A DNA stretch of 64,000 nt, taken from Holophagae bacterium. GTDB lineage: Bacteria; Acidobacteriota; Holophagae; Acanthopleuribacterales; Acanthopleuribacteraceae. Made by a program: the position numbers and the translations under genes. Shown here one piece after another: positions 36,985 to 51,309 of the stretch (positions within the stretch are counted from its first letter, which is position 1; every line of letters begins with the position of its first letter). The notes beneath the pieces were generated by a model. It was not told the origin of the DNA and did no database searches. It saw only the letters and a list, made by a program, of their open reading frames with translations. Location: contig JAJCXM010000003.1 of NCBI GenBank assembly GCA_029263455.1, forward strand, positions 248,001 to 312,000, in the 5' to 3' direction.

Positions 36985-37638
36985 ATGCTCGTTCGAGCAT
37001 GTTTAGCTACAAGCCTGGATGGCAAGATAAGTGATGGTTTATCAACCACGCCCAATTTCACGTCACGAGAAGATCGAGCGCGTTTATTTAACCTGAGGTC
37101 GGTGTCTGACGTGTTGCTGGTTGGTGCTCAGACGGTGCGCCATGAATCACTTGCGCCCCTCATCCGTAACCCAAAATTGGTGGAGCAAAGGCGTCAACGA
37201 AGGCAAAATGATCATCCCGATGTGGCCATTTTCACGCGAACAGGTGAGCTGCCTTGGCAAAACGCGTACTTTCAAGCGGCAAAACAAAAGATATCGATCT
37301 TTAGCCCTGGACCACTATCCGATTCAAACGCAAGGCAAGCGCAGGAATTGGATATCCAATTGTTTACCTACGGCGACACGATGAATGTCGCTTTCGATCA
37401 GTTGCGTGCGCTGAGGTACAAAAATGTCTTATGTGAAGGTGGTGGCAGTTTAATCCACAGCCTATTGGCTGAACGCCTCGTCGACGAACTTCACCTGACC
37501 ATAGCTCCCACCGTGATAGGACAGGGAGACTCAGTGTGTTTGGTTCGGGGCCCATTACTGGACCCCAGACCGGAGTTTCGATTAAAGTCCGTCAACCAGG
37601 TTGGTGACGAACTTCACCTCGTCTATTCTTTGTCCTGA
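36985..37638 (+). CDS. RibD C-terminal / dihydrofolate-reductase-like reductase
   Basis: A 217-residue NADPH-dependent reductase of the RibD_C (PF01872) fold. The typical parts are present: ACLATSLDGKIS at the start, SDVLLVGAQTVRHE, VLCEGGGSLIHSLLAERLVDELHLTIAPTVIG, and a final hydrophobic strand. In riboflavin synthesis this domain reduces the ribosyl moiety of 5-amino-6-ribosylaminouracil phosphate. It lacks a deaminase domain here, so it could be a stand-alone RibD2-type enzyme or an unrelated reductase. The 3' end overlaps the convergent GYF_2 gene by 16 bp. Confidence 0.85.
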   Translation: MLVRACLATSLDGKISDGLSTTPNFTSREDRARLFNLRSVSDVLLVGAQTVRHESLAPLIRNPKLVEQRRQRRQNDHPDVAIFTRTGELPWQNAYFQAAKQKISIFSPGPLSDSNARQAQELDIQLFTYGDTMNVAFDQLRALRYKNVLCEGGGSLIHSLLAERLVDELHLTIAPTVIGQGDSVCLVRGPLLDPRPEFRLKSVNQVGDELHLVYSLS

Positions 37639-38795
37639 TTTGCCAGGCGGTCGAGTTTGCCTGGAATGACAAGAATCGCACGTAACACGTCAAGAGACAG
37701 GTAGTAGAGCAGAAAGACAAGGTAAGTGGCAAAGGGTAGCAACGTGACACCAAAAACCATCATCAGCACAGTTTGTCCTTGACCATAGACCATGCCCGGA
37801 TATTCGGCGAAAACTAACCAGCCCAAGAACCCAATGGCGGCCAAAGCACCTACCGTACTAATGACACCAAAAATGAAGGGAACCAAACGAAGCAATAACT
37901 TCATACCAAACGAAAACACGCCAATCGCTTCCTGCCCTGCCGAAGCTTCATCAGAAACTTCCAGATTCAGGCAATGTGAGTTAAGTGCAGCGCCTGCCCC
38001 ATACAAGAAAATGGCAGTTGTTCCCAAACTAACCACAAAGCCTATGATTCCCTGCATATTGAATTGAGAGATCAAAGCGAAAAATGCAGCGGCAAAAGTC
38101 CCGACAGCCATAATCAGCGCAATCAAACCACAGCAATCGAGGAATGCCTTGGAAGATAGCTTGCTGGGTGATTTCTTGATCAAATCGGCGCCAGCATTCA
38201 GAAACTTGAAGGCGATGTAATGGGCAATGACAGCCGCGGGGATGATGACTAACGCCATGCCAGCCAACATACCGCTCTTCATTCGCCCGCCAGCAATCAA
38301 GCCAAACAAAACGAAAACCAAGGCAGCGATCGGGAACGCAAGGTGGCCTATCTTTTTCGCCATCGCGTCCACGCCATCAAGCCGTTCCTCACTAATAAGG
38401 CCACGAGCAAAACCAAGTAATTTATCCACCAATTTCAGGTGGATCAAGTATCCTTCGCTGTCGCCCGATTCCTTGTATTTCTTTAACTGTTCGGCTGCGC
38501 CGCCTAACAGCTCCTTACCGCCCTGTTTCATACGATCCATACTAGGCGCCGGAGCAGGTGCCGCAGCCGGCATAGGCGCTGCTGGCGGTGGCGCTGCTGG
38601 TGGAGCCTGTCGCGGTGCCGGTGGCGCCGCCGTCTGAAACTCAGGCATCGTTGTGGGATTAGCCCATTGAGCCATTCCAGCTCGCCAAACCATGAAACTA
38701 GAGCCAGGATTACCCTGAATCAATTCATTCACCTGTTCATCTGTATGTTGTCCCTGTAATTGAGCTCCGTCCTTGACGACCATCCATGCGGACAT
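37623..38795 (-). CDS. GYF_2-domain multi-pass membrane protein
   Basis: A 390-residue protein with an N-terminal GYF_2/DUF4339 domain (about 1-55, containing FMVWRAGMAQWANP), then an Ala/Pro-rich linker (about 60-90), a short amphipathic helix and about six hydrophobic segments to the C-terminus. GYF_2 domains bind proline-rich or signalling partners; the membrane part is unrecognised. The start was moved to ATG 38795 because GGAGGAG lies before it; ATG 38810 is the alternative. It is convergent with the RibD-type gene. Confidence 0.75.
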   Translation of the reverse strand: MSAWMVVKDGAQLQGQHTDEQVNELIQGNPGSSFMVWRAGMAQWANPTTMPEFQTAAPPAPRQAPPAAPPPAAPMPAAAPAPAPSMDRMKQGGKELLGGAAEQLKKYKESGDSEGYLIHLKLVDKLLGFARGLISEERLDGVDAMAKKIGHLAFPIAALVFVLFGLIAGGRMKSGMLAGMALVIIPAAVIAHYIAFKFLNAGADLIKKSPSKLSSKAFLDCCGLIALIMAVGTFAAAFFALISQFNMQGIIGFVVSLGTTAIFLYGAGAALNSHCLNLEVSDEASAGQEAIGVFSFGMKLLLRLVPFIFGVISTVGALAAIGFLGWLVFAEYPGMVYGQGQTVLMMVFGVTLLPFATYLVFLLYYLSLDVLRAILVIPGKLDRLANQDKE

Positions 38796-39290
38796 GTCTC
38801 CTCCAATCACCGCGCCGACAGCGCAAAAGTTTTAGTACTGAATTATGTAACACCATGATAGCAGCGAACCTGCACCTAATCCACAAAAGCATATGTGCAT
38901 CTTAGGTTTGGTAGACACCTTCGCAATTGAGCATTGACGCTTGGCGCAGGGTGCCGTGATTTTGGTCTGGTAGCGCATCGAGGGTCCGGCACCCGTAACA
39001 AACAAGATTCCTCAAAAAATCTGTCCGCCGCCAAAACAACATTTCCATGGCATAGCACGCAAGTAATCCCTGGACTCCCGTATACGCCGATGAATTTGTG
39101 CTTAAATTCGCTCAACAAATTGCATTTCCTGCAGCCCTTTCGCGGCCTTAATCCATCCATACTGCCCGTGATTTCAAAAAACTTTTATTGACCCAGCAAG
39201 CTAACCACAATCCATTGGCCTGTCTTACTTAGCGCCAAAATTAATGTAATCAATTCACACACTTTTATGATCATTCCCAAAAAATAATGT
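38796..39290. other. Gap upstream of the ilv promoter
   Basis: About 500 bp with no supported gene. Frames here lack SD sequences; one minus-strand frame has a CVLCH sequence resembling a haem site but no other cytochrome features. A+T-rich DNA at 39225-39290 leads up to the ilv promoter. The GYF_2 gene's own promoter should lie at the left end. No repeat or hairpin of note was found. Confidence 0.45.
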
Positions 39291-39319
39291 TTGACAGGCA
39301 CCCACCACTCCTGTAGCTT
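39291..39319 (+). promoter_or_regulatory. Predicted promoter of the ilv-leu operon
   Basis: TTGACA (39291-39296, perfect -35), 17-bp spacer, then TAGCTT (39314-39319) as a weak -10. Transcription would start near 39326, giving a leader of about 140 bases before the leader-peptide ATG and about 325 bases before ilvD. It is the best match between the upstream A+T-rich zone and the leader. Confidence 0.45.
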
Positions 39320-39466: not shown

Positions 39467-39550
39467 ATGTTTAACGCTAGCCAACTCACTCTTATTATTG
39501 TGCTCGTCCTTATTATCCTCGTCATTACGAGGTTGGGGGCACTGGTGTAG
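39467..39550 (+). CDS. ilvL: ilv operon leader peptide (attenuator)
   Basis: A 27-residue frame rich in branched-chain codons. Codons 9-20 (39491-39526) are uninterrupted Leu, Ile, Ile, Val, Leu, Val, Leu, Ile, Ile, Leu, Val, Ile; further Leu/Val codons flank them. This is the hallmark of ilv attenuator peptides. A ribosome starved of any of the three charged tRNAs would stall in this run. The leader ATG has no SD of its own; a 16-codon frame (39412-39462) ends four bases before it and may couple translation. The next elements are the antiterminator and terminator. Confidence 0.85.
   Translation: MFNASQLTLIIVLVLIILVITRLGALV
39529..39540 (+). promoter_or_regulatory. Antiterminator strand of the ilv attenuator
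   Basis: GAGGTTGGGGGC, at the end of the leader-peptide frame, is complementary to GCCCCGAACCTC (39578-39589) with one mismatch. That second segment is the left arm of the terminator hairpin. Pairing here therefore excludes the terminator. A ribosome stalled in the codon run leaves this strand free (read-through), and a ribosome reaching the stop at 39548 covers it (termination). Confidence 0.75.
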
Positions 39551-39576
39551 TTAGACCACAAGCATTTTCGCTTAAG

Positions 39577-39612
39577 AGCCCCGAACCTCATACGAGATTC
39601 GGGGCTTTTTTT
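39577..39612 (+). terminator. Attenuator terminator before ilvD
   Basis: AGCCCCGAA (39577-39585) pairs with TTCGGGGCT (39598-39606). An inner CTC/GAG (39587-39589, 39594-39596) lengthens the stem, and a run of Ts follows at 39606-39612. This is a strong intrinsic terminator placed 38 bases before the ilvD start, where an operon attenuator is expected. Confidence 0.9.
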
Positions 39613-39650: not shown

Positions 39651-41291
39651 ATGACAACCAGACCTAGCCAAAAACTTCTAAGCGGCATTTCAAGAGCTCC
39701 TGCGCGCGCCATGCTCAAGGCAACGGGACTTACACAAGCCCAGCTGGATCGACCTCTGATCGGCATCGCCAATACCTGGATCGAAGTCACGCCCTGCAAT
39801 ATGCATCTCAGGGAGTTGGCCAAATACGTAAAAGCCGGGATTCGTCAAGCTGGTGGAACGCCTATCGAGTTCAATACCATCGCCGTCTCAGATGGCATCA
39901 CCATGGGGACTGAAGGTATGAAGGCTTCACTCATTTCTCGTGAAGTGATTGCCGACTCCATCGAACTCTGCGCCGGAGCACACGGTTTTGACGCCGTTAT
40001 CGCGCTTGTTGGTTGCGACAAAACCATTCCTGGCGCCATCTTGGGTCTGGCCCGACTGAATCTGCCCGCACTTGTTTTTTACGGCGGATCGATCATGGCT
40101 GGTAACTTTCGTGGTCTCGACGTCACGGTTCAAGATGTTTTTGAAGCTGTCGGAGCCTGCGGAGCTGGCAAGATGAGCGAAGCAGAACTTATCGAACTCG
40201 AAGAAAAGGCATGCCCAGGTGCTGGTGCTTGCGGCGGTCAATTCACTGCCAACACGATGGCTTCAGCCTGCGCGTTGATGGGCATCTCACCCATCCACCT
40301 GAATGAGATCCCTGCTCGTCATCCCGATAAAAACAAGGCGGCACGTGAACTTGGACCCATGATTATGGCGTTACTCCAAGAGAACATAGGTTTTCGTGAG
40401 TTTATTACACGGCCATCGCTCTTAAACGCGATCACCGGCGTCGCTGCCACGGGCGGCTCCACCAATGCCATTCTCCACTTGTTGGCGATTGCCAACGAGT
40501 CTGACGTTAAATTATCGCTCAAAGATTTTGACAAGATTTCAGCAAAGACACCTGTAATCGCGGACCTCAAGCCAGCCGGTCGCTTCACCGCCCCCGATTT
40601 TACGGAAGCAGGTGGCATCAGACTATTAGCTCAGCGGCTGTTCACCGAGCAACGGCTAGCAGACGTCGCAACCGTCTCTGGCCGAACGCTAAAACAAGAG
40701 TCCGATTTGGCTGCTGAAGCTCAAGACCAAACGGTGATTCTTTCATTCAATAACCCAATGAAGAGTCGCGGCGGATTTGCAGTGCTATTTGGAGCCTTGG
40801 CGCCCGACGGCTGCATCATTAAGCTGTGCGGACATGATCGTCAGCTTCACCGGGGCCCAGCACGTGTGTTCGACGATGAAGCGAATGCTTTCGCGGCGAT
40901 CCAAAACGGCGACATCCGTTCTGGCGATGTCCTAGTTATCCGTGGAGTAGGCCCCAAGGGCGGACCGGGCATGCCCGAAATGCTTGCCGTAACGGCAGCG
41001 CTTATAGGCGCGGGTTTAGGTGATTCGGTCGCTCTGATCACCGACGGCCGTTTCAGCGGAGCTACCCACGGATTCATGGTTGGGCACGTGGCACCCGAAT
41101 GCGCGGCCGATGGACCCATCGCCTATTTACAAGATGGCGATGATATCGCGATCGATGTAAACAACCGCCGTCTTGATGTCCACAACGATCTCAGGCACCG
41201 GCAAGCATCTGTAACCAATCAACCAAGAGGACGCGTGTATGCCAAATACGCTCAACTCGTCCAATGCGCGTCTCGTGGCGCAATAGTTTAA
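39651..41291 (+). CDS. ilvD: Dihydroxy-acid dehydratase
   Basis: This 546-residue enzyme dehydrates dihydroxyisovalerate and dihydroxymethylvalerate, a step shared by valine/leucine and isoleucine synthesis. Its iron-sulfur cysteines are in place: TPCN (C49), VGCDKT (C122) and PGAGACGG (C194). The [15 protein letters not shown] motif near 475 is typical. AAGAGGA precedes the ATG. It is the first structural gene after the attenuator; ilvC follows after 15 bp with AAGGAG. Confidence 0.97.
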
Positions 41292-41306: not shown

Positions 41307-42317
41307 ATGACAAAAATGTACTGGCAAAATGATGTGGATCCGACCCTACTCCCGCAACTGAATGTCGCTATTATTGGCTACGGTAGTCAGGGTAGAGCCC
41401 ATGCGCTTAATCTTCGCGATTCTGGTGCTCGCGTTCAAGTTGGGCTCCGAGAAGGTGGAAAGAGTTGGAAGGCCGCTCAAAATGACGGTTTCGAACCCGT
41501 CACGCCAAAAGCAGCTGTCAAAGGCGCTGATATCGTGGCCATCCTGGTGCCCGATCTAGCTCAACCAGAACTCCTGAGTCTTGAAATTCTGCCCTTTGCG
41601 CAGTCCAACACATCCCTACTCTTCGCCCATGGTTTCAATATCCATTTCGAATTCGTCGATGTACCTAAGCATTTTGACGTCATGATGGTCGCACCCAAAG
41701 GACCAGGACAATTGGTTAGGCGGCAATTCGTGGAAGGACGCGGCGTGCCCAGCCTGTTTGCGATCCACCAAGATCACAGCGGTCGCGCCAAGGACAGGGC
41801 ACTCGCTTATGCCCACGGGATCGGTGGCACACGCGCCGGTGTCATTGAAACCAGCTTCGCCGAAGAAACCAACACAGACTTGTTTGGAGAACAAGCGGTC
41901 TTGTGCGGTGGCGTAACTGAATTAGTTACAGCCGGCTTTGAGACACTGGTCGATGCAGGTTATGCGGCCGAAGTTGCTTACTTCGAATGTCTACACGAGC
42001 TCAAGCTCATTGTCGACTTGCTTTATGAAGGCGGGCTCGAAAAGATGCACGAGACCATCAGCGACACCGCCAAATACGGGGACCTCACAAGAGGACCTCG
42101 TGTGGTTGACGAGAATGTCAGAGCGCGCATGAAGACCATCCTGAGTGAAATCGAAAGCGGCCAATTCGCACGTGAGTGGCAGGCCGAATACCAGGCTGGC
42201 GGCAATCACTACGATGAACTCATGCAAAAGGATCTGGCTCATCCAATAGAAGACGTTGGACGCAGTTTGCGATCTCAAATGAGTTGGCTCAAACAGCCCC
42301 AGGCGGCTCACACATGA
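41307..42317 (+). CDS. ilvC: Ketol-acid reductoisomerase, class I
   Basis: This 336-residue enzyme isomerises and reduces acetolactate and acetohydroxybutyrate with NAD(P)H. The nucleotide-binding GYGSQGRAHALNLRDSG motif is followed by GLREGGKSW, the loop that sets NADPH or NADH preference; this loop differs from the usual RxGSxSW form, so cofactor choice is uncertain. The active-site region FAHGFNIHF, MMVAPKGPG and the C-terminal FGEQAVLCGG with SDTAKYGDL are all conserved. The length is that of short class I enzymes. The stop overlaps the ilvG start (ATGA). Confidence 0.96.
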   Translation: MTKMYWQNDVDPTLLPQLNVAIIGYGSQGRAHALNLRDSGARVQVGLREGGKSWKAAQNDGFEPVTPKAAVKGADIVAILVPDLAQPELLSLEILPFAQSNTSLLFAHGFNIHFEFVDVPKHFDVMMVAPKGPGQLVRRQFVEGRGVPSLFAIHQDHSGRAKDRALAYAHGIGGTRAGVIETSFAEETNTDLFGEQAVLCGGVTELVTAGFETLVDAGYAAEVAYFECLHELKLIVDLLYEGGLEKMHETISDTAKYGDLTRGPRVVDENVRARMKTILSEIESGQFAREWQAEYQAGGNHYDELMQKDLAHPIEDVGRSLRSQMSWLKQPQAAHT

Positions 42318-43963
42318 ACGGCGCCGGCGTAATCGTTCAAGCCATCGCACGCGAAGGCGTAGACACCGTATTCGGATATCCAGGTGGCGCCATCATGCCC
42401 CTGTATGATGCGCTGATCGATGCGCCTTTTCGCCATGTCCTAACCCGCCACGAACAAGCTGCCGCACTGGCAGCTGACGCCTATGCACGCGCCCGTGGCG
42501 ACGTAGGCGTCTGTTTAGCCACATCTGGACCGGGTGCGACCAACCTCATCACAGGCATCGCTAATGCTTACCTAGACTCGGTACCCTTGGTCAGTATCAC
42601 CGGTCAAGTGGGTACCTCCGTCATGGGGACGGATGCTTTTCAAGAAGTGGATGTCTTTGGCCTGACCTTACCAGTGGTGAAGCACAGTTTCTTACCGCAA
42701 AACGGCGAGCAACTGACCTATGCCCTTGAACAGGCATTCGACATTGCCCGCGAAGGTCGGCCCGGGCCTGTGGTTATTGATGTGCCAAAGGATGTGATGC
42801 TTGCCGAGGCACCACCGCTAAGAGCCAAACAACAACCTCAACCAGAACAACGGATGGATAGTCAGTACATTGCTGATGCCAACGAGTACCTTAAATCTTG
42901 TCGGCGACCACTCATTTATGCCGGAGGTGGCGTGGCTATGGCCAACGCCATCGACGCATTTCGTGACTTCGTGGCACGTACCCAAATCCCCGTGGTGACG
43001 ACGCTCAAGGGCATTGGTAACCTTGCCAGCGATCATGCTTTGTGCCTCGGCATGCTAGGTATGCATGGACTAAGATCAGCAAATCTCGCCGTTCAAGAAT
43101 GTGATTTGTTGATCGTCATCGGTGCTCGCTTCGACGATCGGGCAACCGGAAAACTAGCCGAATTTGCGCCCAAAGCTAAGGTCATCCACTGCGATGTTGA
43201 TCCGGCTGAACTGGGTAAGTTAAGGGCACCAACCGTGTCTTTATGCGGCTCTCTAGCACAAACACTCAACGCACTCCGGCTAGACACGATCAATCCCCAT
43301 TGGTCAAAACGCTGTCTCAAAAGACGCCAACAACTCACGGACAAAGGCTACCCCCGTACAACCGATATCTATGCGCCTCGCCTACTTAACGCACTCAGTG
43401 GCGCGCTTGACAAAGACGTTCCCGTTACTTGCGATGTGGGCCAACATCAGATGTGGGTCGCTCAACATATGGTGTTTCATCACCCCAAATTCCATTTGAG
43501 TAGTGGCGGTCTTGGCACAATGGGATTTGGGCTACCTGCCGCTATCGGTACTGCCTTTGCTAATCCTGGGAAACCGGTTGTGTGCGTTACGGGTGACGGC
43601 TCGTTAATGATGAATATCCAAGAGCTAACCACCATCGCACGCGAGAAACTGCCCATCAAGATTCTCTTGTTCGACAACAGCAGTCTTGGCCTGGTGCGGC
43701 AGTGGCAAGAGCTCTTCTTCGACAAGCGTTTCAGTCAAATTGACCTGTCAGATAATCCCGATTTCGCCAATCTTGCCCGGGCATTTGGCCTCCCGGCTAT
43801 GAGTTTCCACCTCGCCGCCCACGAACCTCAGATTATCGAGGCTATCACCCAGTCGGGCGGACCACTCTTTGTGCATGTCCACATAAACCCACATACCAAA
43901 GTATGGCCGCTCGTCCCGCCGGGCAAACCCAATCACGAAATGATGGAAGGAGCTTCACGATGA
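42314..43963 (+). CDS. ilvG: Acetolactate synthase large subunit
   Basis: A 549-residue ThDP enzyme making acetolactate from pyruvate, or acetohydroxybutyrate from pyruvate and 2-ketobutyrate. Conserved parts: FGYPGGAIMPLYDAL, the catalytic Glu in RHEQAAALAADAYARA, and the ThDP/metal motif GDGSLMMNIQELTTI ending in LLFDN. The start is the ATG at 42314 (MNGAGVIVQAI), giving the normal N-terminus and a four-base ATGA overlap with ilvC; the upstream TTG at 42284 is not needed. It is most like IlvG of the IlvGM (AHAS II) type, since the small subunit that follows is IlvM-like. Confidence 0.95.
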   Translation: MNGAGVIVQAIAREGVDTVFGYPGGAIMPLYDALIDAPFRHVLTRHEQAAALAADAYARARGDVGVCLATSGPGATNLITGIANAYLDSVPLVSITGQVGTSVMGTDAFQEVDVFGLTLPVVKHSFLPQNGEQLTYALEQAFDIAREGRPGPVVIDVPKDVMLAEAPPLRAKQQPQPEQRMDSQYIADANEYLKSCRRPLIYAGGGVAMANAIDAFRDFVARTQIPVVTTLKGIGNLASDHALCLGMLGMHGLRSANLAVQECDLLIVIGARFDDRATGKLAEFAPKAKVIHCDVDPAELGKLRAPTVSLCGSLAQTLNALRLDTINPHWSKRCLKRRQQLTDKGYPRTTDIYAPRLLNALSGALDKDVPVTCDVGQHQMWVAQHMVFHHPKFHLSSGGLGTMGFGLPAAIGTAFANPGKPVVCVTGDGSLMMNIQELTTIAREKLPIKILLFDNSSLGLVRQWQELFFDKRFSQIDLSDNPDFANLARAFGLPAMSFHLAAHEPQIIEAITQSGGPLFVHVHINPHTKVWPLVPPGKPNHEMMEGASR

Positions 43964-44217
43964 ATATGACTCTTAATCTCTCAACCAATAATGGCTATGG
44001 GGCTCTCGAACGCATTCTCGCCGTCGTCCGCTACCGAGGCTATCAGCTCTTAAACGTACAGGCTGATTCCAGCGACACCAAAAACATGGCGGTCGCAATG
44101 ACTGTTTCCCACCCCAGTGGAAACGAGCATTTACTTCATCATCTGCGCAAGCTTCGCGACGTCCAAAGCGCAGAAATGAAAGCCGCTCCCCCAATTCGTA
44201 TCAAGGAGGCCTCCTAA
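43960..44217 (+). CDS. ilvM: Acetolactate synthase small (IlvM-like) subunit
   Basis: This 85-residue ACT-domain protein is the short regulatory subunit type (IlvM), not the ~160-residue IlvN/IlvH. The core LERILAVVRYRGYQLLNVQ...AVAMTVSH is typical of IlvM. It starts at ATG 43960, overlapping the ilvG stop (ATGA), and its stop overlaps the leuA start (TAATG). In enterobacteria the IlvGM enzyme is valine-insensitive; whether that holds here is unknown. Confidence 0.88.
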   Translation: MNMTLNLSTNNGYGALERILAVVRYRGYQLLNVQADSSDTKNMAVAMTVSHPSGNEHLLHHLRKLRDVQSAEMKAAPPIRIKEAS

Positions 44218-45764
44218 TGAATTCATCTATGGTCACCATATTTGACACCACCCTTCGCGATGGCGAACAATCGCCTGGCGCCTCCATGACCGTTGAAGAG
44301 AAGGTAGCCATTGCACGCGCGCTCGAAGATCTGGGGGTGAACGTTATTGAAGCCGGTTTTCCAATCGCTTCCGATGGCGACTTCGAAGCAGTCCGTCGTG
44401 TCGCCGCCCACGTCAAAACCTGTACCGTGGCCGCCTTAGCCCGTTGCCACGAGAAAGACATTGAACGCGCCTTGCAAGCGTTGGCACCAGCCAAGAACCC
44501 GCGCCTTCACGTCTTCTTAGCAACCAGCCCCATTCATCGAGAACACAAACTCAAAATGAGCCGAAATGAAGTCATTGATCGTATCGGCCACGCGGTGCGC
44601 CTCGCTTATAGCTACTGTGATGATGTGGAGTTCTCTGCGGAAGACGCTGCCCGAACTGAACCCGACTTCCTCGTGCAAGTCGCACACACCGCCTTAGAGG
44701 CAGGCGCCCGGACCTTCAATGTTCCCGACACAGTAGGCTACACAACGCCTGATCAGTTTGGAGACTTGGTTTGTAGGCTTATCGCCGAAACGCCTGCTTT
44801 CGCTCAAGCCGTCTTAAGCGTGCACTGTCACAATGATTTGGGTTTGGCAGTTGCCAATAGTCTCGCCGCCGTTCAGGCTGGTGCACGACAAGTGGAATGC
44901 ACCATCAATGGAATTGGTGAGCGGGCTGGAAACTGCGCGCTCGAAGAAATAGTGATGGCGTTAAAGACACGCCATGATCTATTCCACCTAGACACGTCGA
45001 TCCACACGCCAAAGATATTTGCTACCAGTCAGTTAGTTTCGCGCATCACTGGATTACACGTTCAACGCAACAAAGCGATTGTGGGTCAAAATGCCTTTGC
45101 CCATGAAGCTGGAATCCATCAACACGGCGTGCTGCAATGCCAAGAAACTTACGAGATCATGAAGCCCGAAGACGTCGGCGTGCAAGGTAACCAACTGGTA
45201 TTGGGAAAACATAGTGGTCGACACGCTTTCCGAAAGTGGCTTGATGACCGCGGTTTTGAACTCACTGATGAACGCTTTGAGCAAGCGTTCAAAAGGTTCA
45301 AAACACTAGCGGATAAGAAGAAGAACCTATTTGAAGCAGACCTCATCGCCTTAGTTGAGGGTGAACTACAAACAGCCGATGGTCCTTGGACAATCGTATC
45401 TGCCCACACGAGTGCGGGTACAGGTGTTACGCCTTCCGCATCCGTCTGTTTGGTGGATGAATCCGGCGTTCAAGTGGAAGAAGCAGCATGCGGTGACGGT
45501 CCCATCGACGCACTTTTTAAGGCCATTGAACGCGCCACAGGCGTTCGCGCCCTACTCAAATCTTACGAGATACGTAGTGTCAGTGGAGGGCGTGACGCCC
45601 AAGGCGAAGTTGCCGTGGAGGTCGAATGCCAGGGCCGCATTCATCGTGGTCGTGCCTACTCCACCGACATCGTTGAAGGCAGCGGCCAAGCACTCCTACA
45701 TGTCATAAACCGTGTCTTACGGGCCGCCGACCAACAGGCGGCGGTAGCCACAGGCCAGGTGTAA
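44217..45764 (+). CDS. leuA: 2-isopropylmalate synthase
   Basis: This 515-residue enzyme condenses acetyl-CoA with 2-ketoisovalerate, the first committed step to leucine. Features: FDTTLRDGEQSPGASM at the start, the HxH metal site in SVHCHNDLGLAVANS, NGIGERAGNCALEE, and a C-terminal ~140-residue LeuA dimer (allosteric) domain, so leucine feedback is likely. A very strong SD (AAGGAGG) lies just before its ATG. The stop is followed three bases later by cimA. Confidence 0.96.
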   Translation: MNSSMVTIFDTTLRDGEQSPGASMTVEEKVAIARALEDLGVNVIEAGFPIASDGDFEAVRRVAAHVKTCTVAALARCHEKDIERALQALAPAKNPRLHVFLATSPIHREHKLKMSRNEVIDRIGHAVRLAYSYCDDVEFSAEDAARTEPDFLVQVAHTALEAGARTFNVPDTVGYTTPDQFGDLVCRLIAETPAFAQAVLSVHCHNDLGLAVANSLAAVQAGARQVECTINGIGERAGNCALEEIVMALKTRHDLFHLDTSIHTPKIFATSQLVSRITGLHVQRNKAIVGQNAFAHEAGIHQHGVLQCQETYEIMKPEDVGVQGNQLVLGKHSGRHAFRKWLDDRGFELTDERFEQAFKRFKTLADKKKNLFEADLIALVEGELQTADGPWTIVSAHTSAGTGVTPSASVCLVDESGVQVEEAACGDGPIDALFKAIERATGVRALLKSYEIRSVSGGRDAQGEVAVEVECQGRIHRGRAYSTDIVEGSGQALLHVINRVLRAADQQAAVATGQV

Positions 45765-45767
45765 AAC

Positions 45768-47345
45768 ATGGAATTGAAACTCTACGACACAACACTGCGG
45801 GACGGCGCCCAAGGTCTTGGTGTGAACTTCTCTTTGGAAGACAAGCTACGCGTTACTTCCATGCTAGCCGATTTCGGTATCCCCTATATCGAAGGAGGCT
45901 GGCCGGGATCTAACCCGAAAGATAGCAACTATTTCCAGAGAGTAAAGCAGTTGTCGCTGGGGAAAACTAAGGTGGTTGCTTTTGGCAGCACCCGTCGTGC
46001 CGATCGAGATGTTAACAAGGATCGTCAATTGATGACTCTACTTGAAGCCGACACCGAAACCGTCGCTCTCGTTGGCAAGAGCTGGGATTTACATGTGGAA
46101 CACGTGCTCGAGACAGACCTAGACCAGAACCTGGAAATGGTGTGGGACAGCGTTCGTTTTATGAAGAAGCGCGGAAAAGAAGTCGTATTCGATGCAGAAC
46201 ATTTCTTCGACGGTTATAAGGGCAACCCCGACTACGCGCTCCGCGTGCTGCAAGCGGCAGAGGATGCAGGTGCAGATTGGCTCGTTCTGTGTGATACCAA
46301 TGGCGGTTGTCTACCTAACGAAATTCGGCAAATGGTGTGTGCCGTGCGCGACTTGTCCACGACGCCATTGGGCGTGCATACACACAACGACAGTGAACTA
46401 GCCGTCGCAAATGCGCTTGTCGCCTTTCAAGCTGGTGCTCTCATGATCCAGGGCACTATAAACGGATATGGAGAGCGCTGCGGTAATGCCAACTTGGTTA
46501 GTCTCATTCCAACCTTGCAACTGAAGCTTCAGGTCAACTGCGTTGCCGATGATAAGCTACCGAAACTAACGAATTTGGCCCATGCAATCAGTGAAATCGC
46601 CAACCTAAAACCGCAAATCCACGCGGCCTTCGTCGGTGATGGCGCATTTGCCCACAAAGGTGGCATCCATGTCTCTGCCGTGCAAAAACTGCCCGCCAGT
46701 TATGAACACATCAACCCAGATCTGGTCGGTAACCATCGTCGCGTCTCCGTTTCTGAATTGTCGGGTCGCGGTAACATCCGCCATTTGATTGCAGACCAGC
46801 CATGTAATAGCCACGAATTGTTGAAGCGCATAAAGGAACTAGAATCTAAGGGTTATCACTATGAGGCTGCGGACGCGAGCTTGCGTCTATTGGCAGACCG
46901 CATGGGCGGTACTTTCAATGAACCTTTCAGGCTCGACCAAGTTCGTGTCTATTCCGAACGCAGCCAGGAAATTTCGGAATCACAAGCTGTTGTCAAAGTG
47001 ATGGCCGGAAAAAGGCTTCTGCACACCGCAGCTTCAGGAATCGGACCAGTGCACGCGCTTGACGCCGCATTTCGCAAGGCCCTGCTCGACGAATTCCCCC
47101 AACTCAAAGATATGCGATTACTGGACTACAAAGTTCGAATTCTGGATCCCGAGAATGCGACTCGAGCCGTTACACGCGTCCTCATTGAGGCTGGCAACGA
47201 AACGCAACGCTGGTGCACGGTCGGTTGTGGACCCAATATTATTGACGCAAGCGGTGAAGCACTCATTGAAAGCTTCGTCTATTACATTAAATACATTAAA
47301 CAAAACACGACACAAGGAGCTCAACATGTCTCTCACGCCAGTTAA
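45768..47345 (+). CDS. cimA: Citramalate synthase
   Basis: This 525-residue LeuA relative condenses pyruvate with acetyl-CoA to (R)-citramalate, the entry to isoleucine without threonine. The start DTTLRDGAQGLGVNFSLEDKL and IEGGWPGSNPKDSNYF are the TIGR00977-type CimA signature. The metal site is THNDSELAVANAL, and a C-terminal LeuA-dimer-like domain suggests isoleucine feedback. It lies in the place of ilvA in ilvGMEDA-like operons. It overlaps ilvE by 20 bp. Confidence 0.93.
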   Translation: MELKLYDTTLRDGAQGLGVNFSLEDKLRVTSMLADFGIPYIEGGWPGSNPKDSNYFQRVKQLSLGKTKVVAFGSTRRADRDVNKDRQLMTLLEADTETVALVGKSWDLHVEHVLETDLDQNLEMVWDSVRFMKKRGKEVVFDAEHFFDGYKGNPDYALRVLQAAEDAGADWLVLCDTNGGCLPNEIRQMVCAVRDLSTTPLGVHTHNDSELAVANALVAFQAGALMIQGTINGYGERCGNANLVSLIPTLQLKLQVNCVADDKLPKLTNLAHAISEIANLKPQIHAAFVGDGAFAHKGGIHVSAVQKLPASYEHINPDLVGNHRRVSVSELSGRGNIRHLIADQPCNSHELLKRIKELESKGYHYEAADASLRLLADRMGGTFNEPFRLDQVRVYSERSQEISESQAVVKVMAGKRLLHTAASGIGPVHALDAAFRKALLDEFPQLKDMRLLDYKVRILDPENATRAVTRVLIEAGNETQRWCTVGCGPNIIDASGEALIESFVYYIKYIKQNTTQGAQHVSHAS

Positions 47346-48270
47346 CTTTATTTGGCATAACGGAAACTGGATCCCATGGCAAGACGCACAAGTGCATGTG
47401 CTCTCTCATGCGCTCCACTACGGAACCTCCGTTTTCGAAGGAATTCGAGCATATGAAACCCCACTAGGCGTGGCTATTTTTAGACTGGACGACCACATCA
47501 AGCGATTGTTCGAGTCCGCGCATATTTACGGATTCGACGTACAGGTCGACCACCAAGAAATAATGGACGCTTGCAAAGACGCGGTCACCAAAAATGACCT
47601 AAAGTCTGCCTATATTCGTCCGATCATTTTTTACGGATATGGAGGGATGGGTTTGTTGCCACCGGCCGATGCAAAGGCTGAAGTTTACGTGGCAGCATTC
47701 CCTTGGGGCGCCTATCTCGGGGCTGACAGCCTAAAACAAGGCGTCGATGCCGGTGTATCCTCTTGGCGAAGACCCGCACCAGGAACCATTCCAACCTCCG
47801 CCAAAGCGGGCGGTCATTATCTTTCGTCACGCTTGATTGCCAGCGAAGCCAAACGCCTCGGCTACCACGAAGGCATCGCGCTAGATGCGGCTGGTTACTT
47901 GAGCGAAGGACCAGGTGAAAACTTGTTCCTAGTTCGCGACAACGTTCTCTACACACCTTCACCTGCTCATGCCCTGCTGCCTGGACTGACGCGCGATACG
48001 TTGATGACCCTTGCGCGGCAAGCCAGCTTCGAAGTTCGCGAACAATCAATCCCACGGGAGTTTCTCTACTTAGCAGACGAGCTCTTCTTCACCGGCACAG
48101 CGGCCGAGGTTGTCCCTATTCGCTCCATCGATGGAAAACGGGTCGGGTCGGGTGAACCCGGTCCCGTCACGCGTCAACTACAAGATCTGTTTTTTGGTCT
48201 TTTCAACGGAAGAACCGTCGACCAATGGGGCTGGATGGACTATGTCACACACAATTCGGAGGTTTCCTGA
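47326..48270 (+). CDS. ilvE: Branched-chain amino acid aminotransferase
   Basis: A 314-residue class IV PLP aminotransferase that performs the last step of valine, leucine and isoleucine synthesis. [18 protein letters not shown] is at the start, the PLP lysine lies in [12 protein letters not shown], and [16 protein letters not shown] is the canonical family motif. The start is ATG 47326 with AAGGAG before it, inside the end of cimA; longer readings starting at 47059 are not supported. leuC follows two bases after the stop. Confidence 0.95.
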
Positions 48271-48272
48271 AC

Positions 48273-49661
48273 ATGACACAAACTCTATTTGACAAATTAT
48301 GGGACCAACACCTCGTAGTCCCTGAGACAATCGACCACCCAGGTGTCATGTACATCGATCTTCATTTGGTGCACGAAGTCACCTCGCCTCAAGCCTTCGC
48401 TGAACTTGAAAGACGGGCACTCAAAGTAAGGTGCCCCGCCCGAACCTTAGCCACAGCCGACCATTCCATTCCCACGATGCCCGGTCGGCCCTTCCGCGAT
48501 CAGCTCGCAAAAAAACAAGTCGATCGGCTCGTTGAGAACTGTCAAAGACACGGCGTTCGCTGTTACGGCGTTAACGACCCCAACCAAGGTATTGTCCACG
48601 TCATCGGTCCAGAATTGGGCCGCACCCAACCTGGCATGACCATTGTCTGTGGCGATAGCCACACCAGCACACACGGCGCATTTGGGGCGTTGGCATTTGG
48701 CATTGGGACCAGTGAAGTCACTGGCGTTTTGGCTACGCAATGCCTGCTGCAACGTAAACCTAAAACCTGTGCGATATACCTAGAAGGTGAGTTGCAAGCA
48801 GGTGTTTCTGCCAAGGATGTTGCCCTGTTTGTGATCAGTCAAATTGGAGCTAGCGGAGGGACTGGACATGTCCTGGAATACAAAGGATCTGCCGTTCGCG
48901 CCATGAATATGGCCGAACGAATGACGCTATGTAATATGTCCATTGAAGCCGGTGCACGAGCGGGCATGATCGCGGCCGACGATACGACGATTAAATATTT
49001 GAAAGAGCGAGTCTCAACCGCATCTGCCTCCGAATGGCAAAAGCTGGAAACGAAATGGCGTGCGGCCAAGAGCGACAGCGATGCAATTTACGATCGCACG
49101 GTCCACTTGGATGTAACGAACCTACAACCGATGATCACTTATGGCACTTCACCTGATGCAGCTATCGCGGTTACGGACCCCATCCCTCTAGACGCTGATC
49201 CGCGCGCACTTGACTATATGGGATTCACGGCTGGCATGATATTGCAAGGTACGCCCGTTGACATGGTGTTCTTGGGTAGCTGCACGAACTCTCGCATTGA
49301 GGATTTGAGAATCGCGGCTGACGCACTCAAAGGCCGAAAGGTGAACCCCAAAACTAAGCTTTTAGTGGTTCCTGGCTCCGGTGCCGTTAAGCGCCAAGCC
49401 GAAGACGAAGGTCTAGTTCAGATTTTCAAGGATGCTGGCGCGGATTGGCGCGAGCCAGGCTGTTCGATGTGCATTGCCATGAACGGTGATCAACTGCAGC
49501 CGGGGCAACTAGCAGTAAGCACAAGTAACCGTAACTTTGAAGGCCGCCAGGGACCAGGGGGGCGCACACTGCTGGCTAGCCCGTTAACGGCAATGGCGGC
49601 GGCGATCAACGGAGTGGTGAGTGATTGCCGGACATTGATGAATCAGGAGGTTTGTTCATGA
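48273..49661 (+). CDS. leuC: 3-isopropylmalate dehydratase large subunit
   Basis: This 462-residue aconitase-family protein carries the 4Fe-4S cluster; the ligands are Cys in [12 protein letters not shown] and the CSMC pair in [15 protein letters not shown]. With LeuD it isomerises isopropylmalate, and in an organism using CimA it must also turn citramalate into methylmalate. The start is ATG 48273 ([13 protein letters not shown]) with GGAGG ten bases upstream. Its stop overlaps leuD (ATGA). Confidence 0.96.
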
Positions 49662-50233
49662 AAGCTATGACCCAATTCAGCGGCAAAGCGGTGGCATTAC
49701 CACGTCGAGATGTGGACACAGACCAGATTATTCCGGCTCGATTCCTAAAGGTCACCAGCCAGAAAGGTCTCGGGAAACACGCCTTTTCGGATTGGCGTTA
49801 CTTAAATGATGGCCCCCTCAATCCGGAGTTCAGCCTTAATCGACCCGAACACCAAAACGCTCAGGTTCTGGTTGTCGGCGAAAATTTTGGTTGTGGTTCG
49901 TCGCGAGAACATGCGCCTTGGTCACTCTTGGACTACGGATTCCGTGCCGTAGTCGGCACAAGCTTCGCCGATATCTTCAAGAGCAATGCCCTACGAAATG
50001 GGCTCTTAATTGTGGAGGTGGACAAAGCATTCCATCAAACATTGATCTCGGCTTGTCCTACCACTCTAGCTATAGATGTGGATCAGCAAACATTATGCGG
50101 ACCTGATAACAGAACCGCGAAATTCGAACTCGAACCCTTTGCGCGCCATTGCCTACTAAACGGCATTGACACGCTGGAATTCTTACTGGCGCAACAACCG
50201 CAAATCCAGTCTTATGAGGAGAAGATGTCATGA
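49658..50233 (+). CDS. leuD: 3-isopropylmalate dehydratase small subunit
   Basis: The 191-residue swivel-domain partner of LeuC. Typical features: [13 protein letters not shown] near the start and [15 protein letters not shown], which shapes the substrate pocket. The start is ATG 49658, overlapping the leuC stop (ATGA), with AGGAGG upstream. The stop overlaps the leuB start (ATGA). It works in both leucine and citramalate-based isoleucine synthesis. Confidence 0.96.
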
Positions 50234-51309
50234 AAGCAAAGATAGTCGTTTTACCGGGCGATGGGATCGGACCAGAAGTTACTACGGAAGCGATGCGTGT
50301 TCTAAAAGCCATTGGCGAATTCTACAAGCATGAGTTCCAGTTGAATTACGCGCGCCTAGGCGGAGAAGCCATTGATTTTTGTGGTGAGCCCTTGCCTGAC
50401 GAAACCAAAACGCATTGTCAGGAAGCGGATACGGTCTTCTTAGGTGCGATCGGAGGTCCCAAATGGGACAACCCCAAAGCCAAAGTCCGGCCAGAACAAG
50501 GATTATTGGGCTTGAGAAAGATTCTCAATGTCTTTGCTAATTTGAGACCCGTGCGTGCAATCCCGGCTCTGTCAGCGGTTTCTCCGCTTAAAGAGGATCG
50601 CATTCAAGGGGTTGATATCGCTGTGGTACGTGAACTTACAGGTGGCATCTATTTCGGTAAAAAGACGCGTTCTGCCTCCGAAGCAACCGACTTGTGTGTC
50701 TATTCGAAGGCGGAAATCGAACGCGTTGCGCGGTTTGCTTGTGAATTGGCACGACACCGCTCGGGCCATATCGTCTCAGTTGACAAAGCCAATGTGCTAG
50801 AGACATCCAGGTTATGGCGTGAAACCGTCACTGATCTGGTGGAAAAAGAATACCCGACACTGCATTTAGATCATATGTTGGTGGACGCGGCTGCCATGAA
50901 ATTGATTCAGCAACCCACCTACTTCGACGTCATCCTAACCGAGAATATGTTTGGTGACATTCTTACCGACGAAGCCAGCGTCTTGAGTGGTTCGATGGGT
51001 TTATTGCCGTCAGCTTCATTGGGAGTTGGCTCCAAGGGCTTGTATGAACCCATCCACGGATCGGCTCCCGATATCGCTGGACAAGGCGTTGCCAATCCGA
51101 TCGGCGCGATCTTGAGTGTGGCCATGATGTTGCGCCATTCGTTTGCCTTAGAAACGGAAGCGACAGCCATCGAATCTGCCGTTGATGAAGTATTGAGCGC
51201 TGGTATGTGGACGCCCGATCTGGCTTTTGGCGACCACAAACCCGTCTCAACTCGCCAAGTCGGAGAAGCGGTGGTAGCGGCCATCACCGCCAACGAAATC
51301 TGGTATTAA
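50230..51309 (+). CDS. leuB: 3-isopropylmalate dehydrogenase
   Basis: A 359-residue NAD-dependent decarboxylating dehydrogenase, last gene of the operon. It carries VLPGDGIGPEVT at the start, the catalytic region VVRELTGGIYFG, VDKANVLETSRLWRE, and TENMFGDILTDEASVLSGSMGLLPSASLG, all typical of LeuB. It oxidises isopropylmalate, and methylmalate for isoleucine. It is translationally coupled to leuD by an ATGA overlap. A hairpin follows the stop. Confidence 0.96.
   Translation: MKAKIVVLPGDGIGPEVTTEAMRVLKAIGEFYKHEFQLNYARLGGEAIDFCGEPLPDETKTHCQEADTVFLGAIGGPKWDNPKAKVRPEQGLLGLRKILNVFANLRPVRAIPALSAVSPLKEDRIQGVDIAVVRELTGGIYFGKKTRSASEATDLCVYSKAEIERVARFACELARHRSGHIVSVDKANVLETSRLWRETVTDLVEKEYPTLHLDHMLVDAAAMKLIQQPTYFDVILTENMFGDILTDEASVLSGSMGLLPSASLGVGSKGLYEPIHGSAPDIAGQGVANPIGAILSVAMMLRHSFALETEATAIESAVDEVLSAGMWTPDLAFGDHKPVSTRQVGEAVVAAITANEIWY

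Follow-up and report, generated by a model that had tools for sequence, protein, structure and literature searches.

The region upstream of ilvD in the stretch of DNA analyzed here (the window; 64 kb from a genome of the class Holophagae, Acidobacteriota, most probably of the family Acanthopleuribacteraceae) very probably forms a ribosome-mediated transcription attenuator, through which charged Leu, Ile and Val tRNAs are sensed jointly and a single operon for all three amino acids is controlled. Ribosome-mediated attenuation by Leu/Ile/Val had been put forward in an earlier note on this DNA, and the proposal is backed by the anatomy of the leader, by ribosome-position folding in comparison with E. 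coli ilvL and thrL, and by conservation in relatives. The leader peptide ORF (Table 1) carries 12 consecutive, uninterrupted Leu/Ile/Val codons (five Ile, four Leu and three Val), which lie exactly where that note had placed them. A search of the 64 kb window in all six frames for Leu/Ile/Val runs of at least nine codons found the leader run alone. Dinucleotide shuffling of the 64 kb, repeated 200 times, never gave 12 codons, the longest shuffled run being 11; the run exceeds what chance produces. Its codon class is that of the amino acids made by the downstream operon (Leu, Ile and Val). No clear Shine-Dalgarno sequence was seen ahead of the ATG at 39467, where translation of the leader would begin. 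An alternative in-frame start for a longer leader is present at ATG 39392, and in the sister species the frame upstream of the 27-codon leader is closed to longer starts. The candidate promoter given in Table 1 was not listed by the promoter scan; its TTGACA and the CTCCTGTAG block are identical in the sister species. By eye, TTGACA-type promoters were also seen very near the leader ATG upstream of ilvD at three other loci (L014, L016, and L031), and translation of these leaders may start on a leaderless transcript.

Folding of the region downstream of the control codons showed two alternative structures, as the earlier note had described. The two arms of the antiterminator (GAGGTTGGGGGC and GCCCCGAACCTC) form 11 pairs with one G.G mismatch, and pairing of 39527-39573 with strand 3 gave -24.8 kcal/mol, a value that three of 5000 shuffled versions of the same segment equalled. 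The right arm of the antiterminator doubles as the left arm of the terminator, whose hairpin extends from 39574/77 to 39606/09 with a run of seven T residues, and since strand 3 is common to both pairings the two structures are mutually exclusive. This T-run ends 38 bases upstream of ilvD. A simple terminator scan listed no site at the attenuator, and folding shows the hairpin clearly. In addition, we found a protector 1:2 hairpin (39506-39541, -14.9 kcal/mol), absent from the earlier note, in which part of the control codons pairs with strand 2, and strands 1-4 of a classical attenuator are therefore complete. The fold of the leader region was better than that of all 200 of 200 shuffles (z -3.7).

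Table 1. Features of the attenuator and of the downstream operon, in window coordinates.
Feature	Coordinates	Strand	Details
Candidate promoter	39291..39319	+	TTGACA, 17-base spacer, weak second hexamer TAGCTT
Leader peptide ORF	39467..39550	+	27 codons, MFNASQLTLIIVLVLIILVITRLGALV; stop TAG 39548-39550
Control codons	39491..39526	+	CTT ATT ATT GTG CTC GTC CTT ATT ATC CTC GTC ATT
Strand 1	39506..39522	+	inside control codons, partner of strand 2; fold 39506-39541; hairpin also in MFE
Strand 2	39527..39541	+	antiterminator left arm 39529-39540; also closes 1:2 hairpin
Strand 3	39574..39589	+	antiterminator right arm 39578-39589; terminator left arm 39574-39589
Strand 4 of intrinsic terminator and T-run	39594..39612	+	T-run 39606-39612; hairpin -22.6 kcal/mol
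ilvD, dihydroxy-acid dehydratase	39651..41291	+	NCBIfam TIGR00110, above cut-off
ilvC, ketol-acid reductoisomerase (short form)	41307..42317	+	NF004017, TIGR00465
ilvG, acetolactate synthase II-type large subunit	42314..43963	+	NF006524, 816 bits vs cut-off 738
ilvM-like small subunit	43903..44217	+	NF008362, E 4.9e-14, under curated cut-off (52 vs 68 bits)
leuA, 2-isopropylmalate synthase	44217..45764	+	TIGR00973
cimA, citramalate synthase	45768..47345	+	TIGR00977, 676 bits vs cut-off 450
ilvE, branched-chain aminotransferase	47341..48270	+	TIGR01122
leuC, isopropylmalate dehydratase large subunit	48225..49661	+	TIGR00170
leuD, isopropylmalate dehydratase small subunit	49625..50233	+	TIGR00171
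leuB, 3-isopropylmalate dehydrogenase, last operon gene	50230..51309	+	TIGR00169

The transcript was then folded for each position of a ribosome, with 15 bases allowed between the start of the A-site codon and the downstream edge of the ribosome. The results showed that, before strand 4 exists, the antiterminator is predicted for each control codon in the A site through GTC 39521 (P 0.89-1.00), and that its probability drops to 0.10 when the A site reaches ATT 39524 and is largely lost beyond. Stalling of the ribosome at CTC 39503 is predicted to keep the antiterminator dominant until RNA polymerase reaches about 39603. At equilibrium, once the hairpin is complete, the terminator prevails over the antiterminator, and a stalled ribosome does not prevent this (P of 3:4 pairing about 0.98 or more). 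Folding that disfavors the antiterminator, which the earlier note would have counted against its reading, is seen here at equilibrium, and with a ribosome on the control codons the antiterminator is favored before strand 4 is made. The same script, applied to E. coli ilvL and thrL, gave the full antiterminator on the control codons with a drop afterwards, and a dominant terminator at equilibrium as in the Holophagae element; the distance from leader stop to terminator is likewise 22 nt in ilvL and 21 nt in thrL vs 23 nt here. Since the terminator wins at equilibrium both here and in the two E. coli leaders, we infer that the switch must be kinetic. For an untranslated leader the prediction is ambiguous; given free refolding, the antiterminator would be favored as long as strand 4 is missing. 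The predicted geometry is that a ribosome on the control codons frees strand 2 and a ribosome at the stop covers it. In the switch that we propose, transcription would begin upstream and a ribosome would start the leader ORF; when any one of the charged Leu, Ile or Val tRNAs is scarce, this ribosome would stall within 39491-39523 and open the 1:2 hairpin, leaving strand 2 free to pair with strand 3 as it emerges from RNA polymerase, and with strands 2 and 3 paired the terminator would form too late and the operon would be transcribed. With an ample supply, the ribosome would instead move past 39524 to the stop at 39548 and cover strand 2, upon which strands 3 and 4 would pair and transcription would end near 39612.

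Ten co-directional genes in the order ilvD-ilvC-ilvG-ilvM-leuA-cimA-ilvE-leuC-leuD-leuB follow the attenuator at spacings of -61 to +15 bases, which confirms the ten-gene branched-chain operon that had been described earlier; the further claim of a valuable regulatory element in a non-enterobacterial genome with a different operon layout holds as to both layout and host, the latter belonging to class Holophagae. The class was assigned through L003, a named Holophagaceae MAG, among whose relatives is a genome with an ilvD match of the same place and score as that of the sister species (G069 = G001). The GTG start of ilvE at 47341 was picked from the profile match, and the true start of the ilvM-like gene may be ATG 43960. 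Citramalate synthase provides a threonine-independent route to isoleucine, and the ten genes, judged by their annotation, appear to suffice for making Leu, Ile and Val, in keeping with a leader that reads all three. In the window genome (G000, 6.2 Mb) and in the sister species, the best IlvA-like matches reached only 34-36% over about 300 residues. A search of genome contigs for cimA returned only distant, rearranged loci. Three other members of the family (G003, G005, and G006) carry a full-length biosynthetic IlvA, 58-60% to a Holophagaceae IlvA, and their ilvA sits close behind ilvD-C-G-M. It was also observed that cimA lies inside the operon in the window genome and that the place behind ilvM is taken by ilvA in the other family members.

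Several other explanations of the leader were weighed against the attenuator. A Leu/Ile/Val-rich leader ORF would stall ribosomes equally if the stalling acted on Rho-dependent termination or on ilvD translation and not on the intrinsic terminator, and reinitiation has been suggested as a way in which gene-proximal leader ORFs raise translation (PMC4833913). However, the strong seven-T hairpin is both present and conserved, the leader stop lies 100 bases upstream of ilvD, beyond the short reinitiation distances discussed, and a separate GAGGAA motif precedes the ilvD start; we regard this explanation as very unlikely. Less likely still, in our estimate, is that the hairpin is a constitutive terminator which ends a transcript from upstream, with an incidental leader ORF. 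Intergenic terminators are indeed common, but no convincing plus-strand gene was found just upstream of the leader (the long flanking ORFs, 37623-38810 and 38876-39160, both lie on the minus strand), a Leu/Ile/Val run of this length did not arise in the shuffles, and the leader, strand 2 and the terminator are kept together before ilvD across the class.

T-boxes and riboswitches govern ilv/leu operons in other phyla, and the terminator could in principle be driven by such a metabolite- or tRNA-binding RNA, the ORF being fortuitous. Against this, an Rfam scan of the whole window returned no family at gathering score and no T-box or amino-acid riboswitch up to E 5, and what is conserved upstream is a codon content exchanged among Leu, Ile and Val and not a structured aptamer, which leaves this explanation with hardly any probability. 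An attenuator operated by the ribosome translating the leader is the reading that we retain.

The conservation of the element was followed into the sister species and through the class. In the sister species (L010/L039), a 27-codon leader starting MF (MFKTTLLALILVIVIISLVLLRLGPPV), both structures and all ten genes are kept in order. Leu, Ile or Val is still encoded at 11 of the 12 control positions, with several swaps between these residues, a pattern expected if what matters is the codon class and not the peptide. A pattern search for a GGGG...GGCCCC hairpin upstream of related ilvD genes of the class was positive in 22 of 23 regions (window included), nearly all of which have a Leu/Ile/Val leader together with an antiterminator predicted by duplex search. 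Branched-chain leaders with attenuators were seen upstream of ilvD in each of the other family members examined, and in most Holophagaceae whose ilvD is related; at five Holophagaceae loci (L017, L018, L021, L022, and L024) the leaders are poorer in Leu/Ile/Val codons and the T-tracts weaker. A covariance model, R1, built from 20 of the ilvD loci, some of them from genomes that were later searched, gave matches at E <= 0.01 in 57 of 93 class genomes, training sequences included, with the best matches at ilvD. At ilvD of G153 and G192, which belong to another family of the phylum, there is likewise a branched-chain leader with an attenuator. Further R1 matches in other families of the phylum (L095-L098, L100-L103, and L105) and at L087 looked like plain terminators or had no convincing leader, and were rejected. 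The terminator showed five pairs with double changes (reached in 5 of 500 shuffles) and a covariation score of 0.121 vs 0.070 when shuffled, and the antiterminator, in a fixed-column alignment, had 73.9% of cells paired and two pairs with double changes, the counts of such pairs being inflated by the relatedness of the sequences. The pair counts speak for the terminator and, less strongly, for the antiterminator, whose modest covariation is due in part to the position of its bulge, which varies between lineages. Strands 2, 3 and 4 have TT/AA/TT in the window's genus and jointly TG/CA/TG in most Holophagaceae.

The window and the sister species carry one attenuator, whereas four members of the window's family, namely G003 (L011), G005 (L012), G006 (L013) and G004 (L104), have two complete serial attenuators within 620 bases upstream of ilvD, each with its own branched-chain leader and its own terminator. 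Two serial attenuators upstream of ilvD were also found at six Holophagaceae loci (L020, L023, L025, L026, L028, and L029), where the first leader ends in the Leu-rich LPGLVLRL and the second in VLIIS; judging from these endings, the two leaders may sense different amino acids. The arrangement in G003-G006 and several Holophagaceae resembles that of Salmonella mgtCBR, in which one leader holds a pair of leader ORFs with an attenuator for each (PMC3641672), and which was termed by its authors a singular example of tandem attenuators responding to different signals (PMC3641672). It differs in that mgtCBR senses ATP and proline, whereas both leaders of the relatives are branched-chain. Leaders were also observed before other genes of amino acid synthesis. 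At L092 (3945-4049, minus strand of the locus), a leader with MTPRFHTYYWFPRADRAWHGEGPA (HTYYWF) and a terminator precede an aroG-type DAHP synthase gene, making a candidate Tyr/Trp/Phe attenuator in one genome, and at L093 (1384-1478) a leader ending NTTTTTTITGAHRMGSL (TTTTTTIT) and a terminator precede the homoserine kinase gene thrB, making a candidate threonine attenuator, again in one genome. Three Holophagaceae loci (L090, L091, and L107) have an Ile-containing leader, MSHAGSTLIIAAIAIIPSREGA, and a terminator before ilvA, and L109 has a VVVVII leader ahead of ilvE. At L084, L086 and L088, Leu/Ile/Val leaders were seen with no obvious cognate gene directly downstream; those of L086 and L088 come with attenuators, and the region of these two loci contains a LytS-type sensor kinase gene.

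Among known systems, the Holophagae element resembles E. coli ilvL of the ilvGMEDA operon in its Ile/Val/Leu control codons, in its strands 1-4 with a G/C-rich core, in its stop-to-terminator distance and in its ribosome-position profile. In contrast to ilvL, it belongs to another phylum, its leader has 12 uninterrupted control codons, and its operon adds leuABCD and cimA and is without ilvA. The IlvD and IlvC of the operon fit subfamily models other than PRK12448 and PRK05225, which we take to be the enterobacterial forms of the two enzymes. R1 scored E. coli thrL at 19.3 bits and ilvL at 16.9 bits, both weak matches, and common descent with ilvL/thrL, rather than convergence, is possible. 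The leuL leader of the enterobacterial leuABCD operon also controls leucine genes by leader-peptide attenuation; its control codons are Leu codons, whereas the Holophagae leader mixes Leu, Ile and Val. The ilvB-II uORF motif of the Corynebacterium ilvBNC operon, reported from that genus only (PMC11109978; PMC10272879), likewise combines an Ile/Leu/Val-rich uORF with an antiterminator and a terminator before acetolactate synthase genes (PMC11109978; PMC10272879), but in another phylum and a different operon.

The Holophagae element is a known mechanism in a phylum that is, as far as we found, new to it. Leader-peptide attenuation is known from Proteobacteria and Actinobacteria and was later described in some Firmicutes as well, and in the searchable literature, with subscription papers outside its scope, we found no report of it in Acidobacteria/Acidobacteriota. 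According to a survey from 2010, no leader peptides had been demonstrated beyond Proteobacteria and Actinobacteria, to which the survey itself then added Firmicutes; it also said that the attenuators predicted in Acidobacteria were almost all without associated function (PMC2965389). From the distribution described above we tentatively suggest, at somewhat less than even confidence, that leader-peptide attenuation is a general regime of amino acid operons in Acidobacteriota, at least in Holophagae and one other family, acting on branched-chain synthesis at ilvD, sometimes through two serial attenuators that read different branched-chain codons, with ilvA (Ile), thrB (Thr) and aroG-type (aromatic) genes as further candidates, and that its core possibly shares descent with gammaproteobacterial ilvL/thrL. 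The serial attenuators of the relatives are the more unusual part of the finding. Together, the elements make up a conserved, testable Acidobacteriota family that extends the known range of leader-peptide attenuation and offers a handle on amino acid sensing in bacteria that are hard to grow.
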